Assembly: GCA_026003075.1 (NCBI GenBank)
Contig: BPGO01000007.1
Location: 62,001 to 126,000 of the forward strand
Length of the DNA: 64,000 bases
Direction of reading: 5' to 3'
DNA from: Fimbriimonadales bacterium
GTDB taxonomy: Bacteria; Armatimonadota; Fimbriimonadia; Fimbriimonadales; GBS-DC
The translations under genes and the position numbers were made by a program. Position 1 is the stretch's first letter. Each line of letters starts with the position of its first letter. The notes beneath the pieces are model-generated. The model saw only the letters and a list, made by a program, of their open reading frames with translations, did no database searches and had not been told where the DNA came from. Of the stretch, positions 1-4,896 are shown one piece after another.

Positions 1-858
1 GGATCGGGCTATTCAGACTTCGTGAAGGCAGGAAACCAAGATCATTTGGCAGCGCTTCAGGCGTCCAAGCGTGTGCGTGAGGATAATACGGTTCGCCGTC
101 GCTATGTTATCCCTGGCTCCTCGTTCAAGGGCGCGGTGCGCAGCATCGTGGAAGCGATCACACCCTCGTGCGTACGAGTCGTTCAAAGAAAATATCGCCC
201 TTATCTGCCCCAAGGCTACGGCAGTTGCATATCAGTTGATCACCTCTGTATTGCTTGCCGTCTGTTTGGCGCGCAGGACTACCAAGCCCATATCAGTTTT
301 GAAGACGCAGTCGCCCCCAAGGGGTCTCTGGTGCTTCTCGGCGTCCCCCTGCTCTGGACGCCTGCACGCGGGGGGCGTGGACTACCTAAGTCCTATTTAA
401 ATAATCGTGATAACGCCAAAGGACGCAAGTTTTATCCCCATGCCGATTATGCGAAAGGTGCAGACCCTCGTACATGCATTAAGACAGGCGCCCACATCGA
501 AAACTGGCGGGTGCATTTTCTAAACCTCACTGAGGCGGAGCTTGGGGTGTTGCTCACCGCATTAGGATTGCATCCCAAGTATCAGTTCCCCATCAAAGTC
601 GGTGGCGGCAAACCCGTGGGGTTGGGCAGTATCAAGCTCTCTTTGGACGCGATGCAACTCATTCACAGCGAAGACGCCATCCGCCAAACAGGACGGCTGG
701 GGCAATCGCAACCTCTACAAGGAAACGCATTGCAGGAATACGTGCATCAATTGACCGCGCAGGCGCAGTCCCTTCTGCACGAAAAATCGCTCCAAGAACT
801 CGCGGATATTTTGACGGAGAAAGGTCTCCAGAATACCGCACCTGCTGGTCCGTACTGA
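1..858 (+). CDS. CRISPR-associated RAMP superfamily protein (Csm3/Cmr4-like, type III), 5'-truncated by window edge
   Basis: Frame open upstream of the listed start (GSGYSDFVK...); motifs IPGSSFKGAVRSIVE, CIACRLFG, and Gly-rich KVGGGKPVGLGSIKL, typical of RAMP proteins. Confidence 0.82.
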   Translation, partial: GSGYSDFVKAGNQDHLAALQASKRVREDNTVRRRYVIPGSSFKGAVRSIVEAITPSCVRVVQRKYRPYLPQGYGSCISVDHLCIACRLFGAQDYQAHISFEDAVAPKGSLVLLGVPLLWTPARGGRGLPKSYLNNRDNAKGRKFYPHADYAKGADPRTCIKTGAHIENWRVHFLNLTEAELGVLLTALGLHPKYQFPIKVGGGKPVGLGSIKLSLDAMQLIHSEDAIRQTGRLGQSQPLQGNALQEYVHQLTAQAQSLLHEKSLQELADILTEKGLQNTAPAGPY

Positions 859-868
859 GAGGAGGGAA

Positions 869-1177
869 ATGATGCCAAACTGGGACGCGATTATGAAAGA
901 GGCGAAACGCTTGGAGAATCTGCTGAGGCGGTCGGATATCGACCTCAACGAAGCCGAAAAAGCGCTGGGCTACTATATTTTCAAAGGCTACGATGACGCG
1001 GCGATGGAGCGCTATCTCGAGGAAATGGCAACAAATCCACCCCTTCGCAGCAATCGCACGCAAGGGTACTACAAAGAGCTGAGCCGAGTGTGGCAGCAGT
1101 GGAGCGCGCAGTGCGCGCTCAGCGGCATCGACAAAGCACGCGCCTGGGGCTGGGGCGTGAGAATGGCAAAGTCATAG
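869..1177 (+). CDS. Small alpha-helical protein, possible type III small subunit or accessory (unproven)
   Basis: 102 aa, starts 10 nt after the RAMP stop, preceded by ggaggg; position and size fit a Csm2/Cmr5-like subunit but no diagnostic motif. Confidence 0.4.
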   Translation: MMPNWDAIMKEAKRLENLLRRSDIDLNEAEKALGYYIFKGYDDAAMERYLEEMATNPPLRSNRTQGYYKELSRVWQQWSAQCALSGIDKARAWGWGVRMAKS

Positions 1178-1189
1178 GGGAGGAAGATT

Positions 1190-2485
1190 ATGGAACATGT
1201 TGCGATCCCGCTACGTGAGTTAAGTCCTAGAAAACTCGTGGAATGGGTAGTGCAAAAGATGAACGACGATACCCTACCCTCCGCGATGAAGGCACACCTG
1301 GAAAGCAAGCAAATTACGGACTATGCGTCTCTTGCTTTATGGCTATACCGAGTCTCCAACCCTGCGATAGAAGTTGTTAGCCTCTTTACAAATAACTCGC
1401 TTATTGAGTTTCTTAACGACATAATTATGTCCATATCGGAAGGAAATGTGTTAGAAATTTTTTTCCCCAGCAATAGAACTGTTAGTTTATCGAATACAGA
1501 AGCAAAAGATTTACTAACAACCTACTTCTCAGATTATACAAAAAACTTGTATGAACAATATACCAATTTTCAAACTTTAGGAGTATATCGGGACTTCGTG
1601 AAGATAAAGGAACACCTTAGTGAATTGGAAGGATCTCTTGCTCTCATCAAGCGACTATCTACGAGTCCTAACAGAGAAGATTTTCGGAGTAAATTGGAAG
1701 ATGCTGAGAAGACTGCAATGCGAATAGGAAAACTACTTGAAGAGATTCTGAATAGCTTTTTCTATGTTGTCCGGGAAATCACCATAATATCAAGCAAAGG
1801 TAAAATAGACATATTAAAAAAGTACAAATATCTAAAAAAATCATCTTGGGATTGGTCTACAAAAGAAAAGGTCTTGGACGAATTCATCAAAGACATCAGT
1901 CAAACTGAGGTGGACGACAGCTTACAGATTTTAGCGGGAGTCGTGCGTAATTTCTTGGACGCATACTTAGGGCGAAAAACACAAGAGAGTTTTATGACAG
2001 AAACAATTAGGAAGTGTAGAAACAAAAGCGCACATAGCAAATTAGAACTTCCAGACCTTGAAACAATTTCTCGATCTGTATCAAGCTGCATTCCCCAACT
2101 GGAACCTATGGTACCCCGTTGTTGCCATGTAGTAAGGTCAGAACTATCACCCTGGCTTACAGTTCTCAAGCTACGCATGGAAGACAAGAAGGAACTGGTA
2201 GAAGTTTACTATCCAACAGAACACCTTTTAAAGTATACTTGTTTTGATAAGTATGAAGATATAATAAGAGCGTCAGAAGATATTGATCTACTTCTTGCAC
2301 TCCCTACAGGGTCTTCATCTTATAGTCAATTCTTCTTGGTAAGATACGGCGAAGTTAACAACTATGGAAAGGTGAAATATCAATATTGTTTTGGCTCCCA
2401 AAGTAGCCTGCAGGATCTTGCAATAAAAGTAAAATTGAAGGAAATCCCCTTACTAGAGTACACTCATATCCAGGAAGCTGTTTGA
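1190..2485 (+). CDS. Uncharacterised protein with HEPN-like R-N-x3-H motif (RNKSAH)
   Basis: 431-aa ORF 12 nt downstream of the small ORF with SD ggagga; motif KCRNKSAHSK encoded at about 2012-2041; locally AT-rich. Confidence 0.55.
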   Translation: MEHVAIPLRELSPRKLVEWVVQKMNDDTLPSAMKAHLESKQITDYASLALWLYRVSNPAIEVVSLFTNNSLIEFLNDIIMSISEGNVLEIFFPSNRTVSLSNTEAKDLLTTYFSDYTKNLYEQYTNFQTLGVYRDFVKIKEHLSELEGSLALIKRLSTSPNREDFRSKLEDAEKTAMRIGKLLEEILNSFFYVVREITIISSKGKIDILKKYKYLKKSSWDWSTKEKVLDEFIKDISQTEVDDSLQILAGVVRNFLDAYLGRKTQESFMTETIRKCRNKSAHSKLELPDLETISRSVSSCIPQLEPMVPRCCHVVRSELSPWLTVLKLRMEDKKELVEVYYPTEHLLKYTCFDKYEDIIRASEDIDLLLALPTGSSSYSQFFLVRYGEVNNYGKVKYQYCFGSQSSLQDLAIKVKLKEIPLLEYTHIQEAV

Positions 2486-2581
2486 GAAATAGATCGGAAT
2501 GGCGTACGGGAATCCTGCAAATTGCAGCAGCTAGCAACTCCTTCTGCAGAGTGACTTAGGTTATAATTCTGAACGAAAAAA

Positions 2582-3629
2582 ATGAAATACATCAACGACT
2601 TTCTGCTTCGCCATGAACTACTTCTCTCCATCGGTGTGTTTGGAGTGGCGCAGATGGGGGCGGACATGTTGGCGGATTTGGAGTTAGGCACGGTGGCAGC
2701 GATGGTACGCGGGCTGGGCATTGCGCTGATTGTCGGAATACTGTTTCGAAGCCTGCTGCAGCGCAATCGTCCGATTGATGTGCCGCTGGTGTTCACCGAA
2801 GCCGAGAAGCGTGAGGATGCCCGCGCCCAACTGAAACAGTTCGAGGCACACACACGCACGGAGCGTATCGTGAAGCTACTGGATAGCAGCTCGCCCGTAC
2901 GCGAGGAGGAGCTGTATATCCAATTGCACAAAGTAAGCCAGCTGCGCCAAGCAAACGACTTTACCGTCTGGCGCGACGCACTGACCCAGCTGGTGCGCGA
3001 ATGGGACGAGGAAGTCGACGAGCGGCTCAAACGCTGGATTACAGGGCAGTACCAGGGCGTGGTGTATCATATCAGCCCCGATATTGTGCTGCCTGCGGCG
3101 TTCTACTTGGGTGCGGCGGTAGGGCTACGACGCGATGTGAAGATTTACCAGCGCAATAGTCCCGGCAACTATCACCTTGCAATCGATTTGGCAGGCAACG
3201 CGCGGCGCGTGCTGGAGCCACCGAGTGAAGACATTCCTGGCGTTAAGCAAATTCCTGCCGACGCTATCCCGCCCGAAACGCCCGGCGAACGGCTGATTGT
3301 GCACCTAAGCATCGGCAGGCATTCACCCAATTTTGAGGCACACCCCCGACCACGCGGCGGCGGTCTCCGTCGGCTTCCATTACCCCGAATCGCTACCCCA
3401 TGAAAGGGACTGGCTACCGTATGTGCAAGCACTTGTGCAGCGTGCCAAGCCATGGGTAGAGCGATATAGGCAGATAGATATCTGCTTGGCAGTGCCCCAC
3501 GCGGTCGCGATGGCGCTGGGGATGGCGTTCTCGCGCTCGCCTAAGGTGCGCCTCTGCCATTGGTACGAGGGCACGTACAAGCCTGTTTCGGAGCTGCGCT
3601 GGATTGAGCAGAAGTTGCCGTTCGATTGA
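2582..3629 (+). CDS. 2-TM + SAVED-like domain protein, interrupted by an apparent 1-nt frameshift near 3340-3347
   Basis: ORF 2582-3403 has two N-terminal hydrophobic helices then GVVYHISPDIVLPAAFYLGAAVGLRRDVKIYQ...HLSIGRHSPNFEA; ORF 3333-3629 continues in another frame with HAAAVSVGFHYPE...DICLAVPHAVAMALGMAFSRSPKVRLCHWY, as expected for the second half of a SAVED fold. Confidence 0.62.
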
Positions 3630-3700: not shown

Positions 3701-3770
3701 ACAGGTGCAGGCAATCGGGGAGAAATCTGTCTCAACTCCCCCCAATCTGCTTGCCTGCGAAAGGAGGCTT

Positions 3771-4896
3771 ATGACGATGCATCGAGTGATGACTTTCGGT
3801 GTGGTGAGCGCACTTTTGTGCGCTTCGTTAGCGTTTGCAGGTGACCAGAAGAAGTCGCTACCGCTACAAGAATACGAGGCGAGTCAAATTCAGACCGTCT
3901 CGCCCAAGCGCATGATGAAAGTGCGCTGGGAGAACGGACGCATCATATCCTTATCCCCATGGATCGAGCTGGGCGATTTTGCGCCCGCAGGACCCTGTGA
4001 CCCGAATGAGGTTCTTGTGTTTGACCACGCAGGCGTTGATCCCGCCACAGGTAATCTTGGGAACTCAGTCTGCACAACAAATCGCTTCTATTTCGGCCCC
4101 ACTTATCATAATCCCTACTATGCCAACGATATTCTATCCCTGGTAGACGCTCAATACAACGGCGCGACAGCCAGCTCGTTAACCCATTTATGGTTCTGGA
4201 ATCCTAGCCTGCAGAAATCCTGCGTCGGGCAGCCAGCAGTGCTATGTGATTATCCTAACGCTTGAGGCGTTTGATGCAGAATGCCAGGATATCCACGAAT
4301 CGTCTGGGAATGTGGTTGACGGTGTGATACTGGACTACGGCGTTTTGAATGCTGGCGGTTGGCTCTCTGCGGTTTGTCTGAATTCGATTGGCGGGCTTCA
4401 GCTGCCCTCGCAAGTTGCTGACGACGGCGACCCGGGTACGGATCTGTTGGGTGGCTGGGCTGTGATCTATGCCCAAGCGATTGATACTACGACTGGAGAG
4501 ATCACTTTGGCGTCTGGCGCTCAGCCGTTTCTGTGGCATAACATGCTGAGTACCAATAACGCTGGCGACTCTACCAGCGTCCAGTACGATGACGATAATC
4601 CAACCGATGGAGACCACACCTCACCTGACGAGTGCTATGACTACACCTACGATCTGAGTGGCGCTGGCTGTCCGAACCCCAGCCTTTTGGGTGGAATGAT
4701 GGCGTTCTGGGTGACTTCGAGTTGCACTGCCAGTCCCGACTTGGATGGCAACGGCTGCGTGGATGACGCTGACCTGTTGACTGTGCTGTTCAACTTCGGT
4801 TCGGATGGCAGCGCGGGCGGCGACGCGAACTGCGACGGCATCGTCGACGACGCGGACCTGCTGGATGTGCTGTTCGCCTTTGGCAACGGCTGCTAA
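3771..4896 (+). CDS. Secreted protein with C-terminal dockerin-like EF-hand repeats, apparent 1-nt frameshift near 4228-4231
   Basis: SD aaggagg and signal peptide MTMHRVMTFGVVSALLCASLAFAG in ORF 3705-4265; ORF 4246-4896 continues in another frame and ends with DLDGNGCVDDADLLTVLFNFG and DANCDGIVDDADLLDVLFAFG. Confidence 0.6.

Follow-up and report, generated by a model that had tools for sequence, protein, structure and literature searches.

The 64,000-nucleotide stretch of Fimbriimonadales DNA analysed here (the window; C7:62001-126000) opens with the 3' end of a type III-D CRISPR operon, whose accessory tail consists, with a probability of roughly 60%, of a cyclic oligoadenylate (cOA)-gated membrane effector and a Csx21-linked HEPN-like RNase. 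The genome comprises 2.6 Mb in 18 contigs and is 84% complete; KatS3mg018, HOT.MAX.079, and JP3_11 (Fimbriimonadales/Armatimonadetes MAGs) belong to the same genus, and HRbin15 to the same family. The initial annotation had proposed four genes at the left edge as a type III effector cassette; this candidate is real and was largely described correctly, but its subtype, Csx21, and the TM-SAVED architecture are already known. All four genes, their plus-strand orientation, and their spacings were recovered by an ORF check: the 3' part of a double RAMP gene (1-858), csx21 (869-1177), the gene of a 431-aa protein (1190-2485), and a TM-SAVED gene (2582-3629), separated by 10, 12, and 96 nt. The exception is the SAVED gene, which is split between two ORFs, 2582-3403 and, in another frame, 3333-3629. 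The same gene order recurs in relatives, so the arrangement is not due to chance. Further downstream, positions 3705-4896 encode a protein of the secreted type that carries a dockerin-like DxDGNGxVDDADLL repeat, shows an apparent frame change, and is unrelated to the operon.

Extension to the left bore out the proposed type III locus. The 7 kb next to the window contain, in one direction (+), cas10, csm3, csx10, csm2/cas11, csm3, csm3, and csx19, followed by the RAMP gene. The presence of csx10, csx19, csm2, and several csm3 genes places the operon, whose subtype had been left open, in III-D. Cas10 (PADLOC, 1.5e-31), Csx10 (1e-22), and Csx19 (2e-16) are accompanied by four Csm3-type genes and a Csm2 small subunit (9e-15). 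The RAMP portion within the window is of the Csm3/Cas7 type (PF03787, 5e-10; PADLOC Csm3, 2e-29), and the whole gene, which starts at C7:61854, 147 nt left of the window, encodes 334 aa (Csm3, 2e-41). Type III-D systems with Csx10 and Csx19 share this set of cas10, csx10, csm2-like cas11, several csm3, and csx19; the present operon differs by the addition of csx21, the HEPN-like gene, and TM-SAVED, and its genome differs by an array without adjacent cas genes and by the absence of a match to the Pfam Cas6 family (PF10040) in the 84%-complete assembly. A CRISPR array does exist in the genome, but on another contig (C9:36.86-37.99 kb; 16 copies of the 37-nt repeat GTTGCATCCGCCCTTCAGGGCGGGTGAGGATTGAAAC), where no cas genes were found beside it. 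The Palm GGDD motif of Cas10 is intact (VIGGDDFSLF), whereas its HD motif is degenerate, with LLHE where LLHD is expected. Retention of GGDD in a Cas10 that lacks a good HD motif is usual for III-D, in which HD domains are rare (3%; PMC11229360), and this combination makes signalling, rather than DNA cleavage, the likely output. Left of the window, L001:3134-3620 holds seven direct repeats at ~52-55 nt spacing with a proline-rich translation, which do not form a CRISPR array.

The 102-aa product, described initially as a small helical ORF, belongs to the known type III-A/III-D-associated family Csx21 (PADLOC, 1e-36). Homologues 48-78% identical to it occupy the same position in six relatives, and csx21 without a 431-type gene is found in KatS3mg018 (a complete genome) and Ammonifex; no Csx21 was detected in viral contigs. 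Several Chloroflexota loci (L078-L083 and L085) encode divergent homologues of ~210-270 aa, composed of a Csx21-like part and an extra part, behind the same RAMP and with no HEPN-like gene following. A second csx21-like gene in Thermoflexales (L084:1687-3096) is directly followed by a gene for a CARF protein, implying that other effectors can fill the slot behind csx21. A search of the open-access literature for Csx21 or TM-SAVED by name gave no text match, and an earlier description elsewhere is possible.

No PADLOC or NCBIfam profile matched the 431-aa protein; searches with this one sequence yielded next to nothing, and a scan of GTDB genomes with degenerate patterns returned no relative. 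Since the family is too divergent for a direct scan, csx21 was used as bait, which revealed a gene in the corresponding position in HRbin15 (419 aa), HOT.MAX.079 (423 aa), and DC (~396 aa), as well as in MAG_7 (cut by the contig end), in R1_Bin (truncated), and on a Thermoflexales contig from another phylum, Chloroflexota. A family profile run against 292 genomes of the phylum gave matches at E<=0.001 in six genomes, each directly behind csx21, and gene junctions are tight or overlapping. A match in G134 and a weak one in G123 were inspected and judged to be unrelated. Every member of the seven-member alignment starts with an IPLxxFxPxxLxxWL-like motif (IPLxxFxPxxLxxW at 1205-1246, +, in the window), in which W19 is the sole invariant column. 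The pattern [ILMV]Rxx[RG]NxxxH is present in all five members that cover the site and in none of the 388 background ORFs (250 aa or longer). RNxxxH itself is intact in four of these five, HOT.MAX.079 having GNIFHH (R to G), and in the window protein it reads RNKSAH (R-N-x3-H, residues 277-282; 2018-2035, +), a candidate HEPN active site. As far as the databases and open-access papers searched show, this csx21-linked HEPN-like family is undescribed.

The term HEPN-like reflects the motif and weak profile matches over it. In the trimmed region, HEPN_Swt1 matched at 2e-4, DUF4145 at 4e-4, and RiboL-PSP-HEPN at 0.03, and no HEPN profile reached its curated cut-off (22.0 vs 27.5 bits for HEPN_Swt1). 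The family thus shares with HEPN_Swt1 and DUF4145 the [ILMV]RxxRNxxxH motif on which these matches are centred, but all of them lie below the curated cut-offs, and hhalign of the family core with HEPN_Swt1 domains aligned only the 15 motif columns (P 7.5e-4), which is no proof of a HEPN fold. Two AlphaFold models (pTM 0.41 and 0.59) are helical bundles; three Foldseek searches with these models, regarded as uninformative, retrieved no HEPN fold from the PDB (both models) or a viral library (second model), the best hits being generic helical bundles, and a profile search of PDB sequences gave no real match. The initial claim of a new HEPN-like protein therefore stands with respect to the motif, the weak profile matches, and the unprofiled family, but not with respect to a fold match. 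Moreover, GNIFHH in HOT.MAX.079 shows that the family cannot consist solely of canonical HEPN nucleases. The CARF-HEPN RNases Csx1 and Csm6 share an R-x4-H type motif and the type III linkage. Unlike them, the 431-aa family lacks CARF and lies behind csx21, and the window protein matches no Csx1/Csm6 model; a profile search of it found neither CARF nor any other recognisable cOA sensor.

The fourth gene was matched on both of its pieces by PADLOC profiles (SAVED4--SAVED_TM, 2e-13, on the C-terminal piece; SAVED4--SAVED_LON_TM, 2e-8). Its intact relatives (344-348 aa) match the SAVED4 LON_TM/TM models at 1e-16/4e-15 (1e-16 on HRbin15) and reach the Pfam SAVED cut-off (27.2 vs 26.2 bits); PF18134 has no match in the window's own genome. 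The alignment with the LON_TM model covers nothing before profile position ~196 of 455 and so skips the Lon part, which indicates the absence of a Lon protease domain. SAVED is preceded at the N-terminus by two TM helices, with hydropathy peaks at residues 13-31 (TM1; 2618-2674, +) and 33-60 (TM2; 2684-2761, +). No other part of the protein is as well conserved as TM1 (48% invariant columns vs 15-34% elsewhere), in which E, G, FG, QM, AD, and D are retained, and the conserved charged and polar residues of TM1 favour a role as effector over that of a plain anchor. The protein belongs by PADLOC profiles to the same SAVED clade as the type III-linked SAVED4/CRISPR-Lon protein (CalpL), but has two N-terminal TM helices instead of a Lon protease. 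With the type III membrane effectors Cam1 and Csx23 it shares the predicted nature of a membrane protein that is gated by cOA and has few TM helices, whereas its sensor is SAVED and not a CARF or Csx23 domain. The SAVED-TM architecture is already profiled in PADLOC, and no characterisation of such a protein was found in the open-access literature. In G181 and G183, from another family of the phylum, TM-SAVED lies directly 5' of an HD-type cas10; none was detected in plasmids. The membrane SAVED effector proposed at the outset is thus a two-TM SAVED4 protein linked to type III genes in relatives, with a predicted effector role. An intact orphan TM-SAVED gene (L034:5180-6226; 348 aa, 78% identical) lies on a contig of 6.7 kb, where no cas genes are in view, and a fragment of a SAVED C-terminus at the edge of an R1_Bin contig (L111:3868-4032), besides the truncated copy behind csx21, represents either a second copy or a strain mixture.

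A survey of relatives showed that the 431-aa family and TM-SAVED each co-occur with type III genes, as had been anticipated, but that TM-SAVED accompanies only part of the HEPN-like loci. The two genes adjoin in four of six loci of the phylum, namely those of the window genome (G000), HRbin15, MAG_7, and R1_Bin; behind the HEPN-like gene, TM-SAVED is intact in HRbin15 and reduced to truncated remnants in MAG_7 and R1_Bin. No TM-SAVED was found in the genomes of DC and HOT.MAX.079, both of which carry the HEPN-like gene; of the two partners, Csx21 is hence invariably present and TM-SAVED often, and the idea that the HEPN-like and SAVED genes always occur together was rejected. Conversely, TM-SAVED occurs without the HEPN-like gene in G166, G179, G181, and G183. 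Elsewhere in the window genome, away from cas operons in view, a CARF-RelE protein (Cami1-like; PADLOC CARF7--CARF_RelE, 1e-117) is encoded at C1:254730-255863 (L108:7731-8864, -). DC and HOT.MAX.079 contain, away from the HEPN-like locus, adjacent but separate genes for CARF and a PIN-like nuclease (L109:5442-7018 and L110:3667-5268), which form a single fusion in the known CARF_PIN profile and here represent a split version in two genes. With such other cOA effectors (CARF-RelE and CARF/PIN) in trans, the tail in the window need not be the main effector.

Two alternatives concern the integrity of the locus and of the family. It is highly improbable that the locus is decaying and non-functional with real frameshifts, even though three genes are broken (cas10 once and csx10 several times, L001:10044-14253, and TM-SAVED at ~3343) and the 3' tail is truncated in R1_Bin and MAG_7. 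The breaks lie mostly at homopolymers, several of them within one 1.2-kb gene, and the protein sequence is well conserved across every one; alignment of TM-SAVED with the 78%-identical intact homologue of G166 (348 aa), for instance, places one extra C in the C5 run at 3343-3347 (+). Breaks amid conserved protein sequence point to sequencing indels in the assembly as the likely cause, and the completeness of 84% in 18 contigs, which is lower than that of several genomes of the genus that are broken into far more contigs, also speaks against decay. Only slightly less improbable is that the genes behind csx21 are unrelated and replace each other at one hot spot rather than forming a single family. 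Most member pairs are indeed near shuffled-level identity, whereas identity in those genome pairs is 46-73% for RAMP and 48-79% for Csx21, and the leave-one-out HMM links of DC (E 0.14-4) and MAG_7 (E 0.12-0.25) are weak. Against replacement by unrelated genes, the leave-one-out HMMs ranked HRbin15, HOT.MAX.079, and Thermoflexales first (E 1e-9, 3e-7, and 2e-4, respectively), and the members have in common the N-terminal motif and the aligned RN site. R1_Bin serves as an intermediate (1e-4 to HRbin15 and 3e-20 to the window protein); with it also removed, the window protein scores E=0.1, no better than the top of the background, so the membership of that protein rests on R1_Bin, the motifs, and gene position. 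The rapid divergence beside conserved cas genes suggests either a phage arms race or repeated replacement.

Two further alternatives concern what the 431-aa protein does. That it is no nuclease but serves the III-D complex, jointly with Csx21, in a structural or adaptor role, and has either a HEPN-like bundle or only a chance motif, is a possible although rather doubtful reading, to which the constant pairing with csx21, the degenerate motif in HOT.MAX.079, and the lack of a confident HEPN profile or fold match would conform. However, RNxxxH is kept in four of the five members in spite of near-random overall identity, and such extreme divergence would be unusual for a complex subunit beside a RAMP that is so much better conserved. 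The other possibility, which appears unlikely, is that TM-SAVED and the HEPN-like protein together make up a single split effector, in which cOA is detected by the membrane SAVED protein, which then frees or activates the RNase, as a Lon-less counterpart of CalpL-CalpT/CalpS. The ordered adjacency of the two genes in four genomes, the overlap of their coding sequences in HRbin15 and MAG_7, their joint damage in R1_Bin, and the lack of a sensor domain in the HEPN-like protein agree with such a pair, whereas the retention of the HEPN-like gene alone in DC and HOT.MAX.079, the four genomes with TM-SAVED alone, and the conserved TM1, which suggests that TM-SAVED is itself an effector, do not.

Cas10 synthesizes cOA on target recognition in type III systems. 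Under the preferred reading, a membrane effector beside a Csx21-linked RNase, the crRNA-guided complex would bind invader RNA and Cas10 would make cyclic oligoadenylate. TM-SAVED would bind this signal, most likely cA4 by analogy with CalpL, and assemble via its SAVED domain, whereupon the conserved TM1 may perturb the membrane. Alongside it, the 431-aa protein would most likely act as a HEPN-type RNase controlled via Csx21 or the effector complex, a mode of control proposed because Csx21 is its sole constant partner and no cOA sensor is recognisable in it. The more specific proposal, that Csx21 and the 431-aa family constitute an undescribed, hypervariable RNase arm of III-D systems switched not by a cOA sensor of its own but via the crRNA complex (through Csx21) or via TM-SAVED, is offered as a tentative and rather doubtful one.

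TM-SAVED, with intact relatives in HRbin15 and G166, is a predicted membrane effector that is uncharacterised in the papers found. The known type III HEPN effectors Csx1, Csm6, and Csm6-2 each carry their own CARF sensor. If the proposed RNase role is true, a HEPN-like family that lacks a sensor and is tied to Csx21 would have to be controlled in some other way and would offer a first clue to the function of Csx21, and control of the RNase via the Csx21/crRNA complex or TM-SAVED would represent a new wiring from type III signalling to RNase activity.
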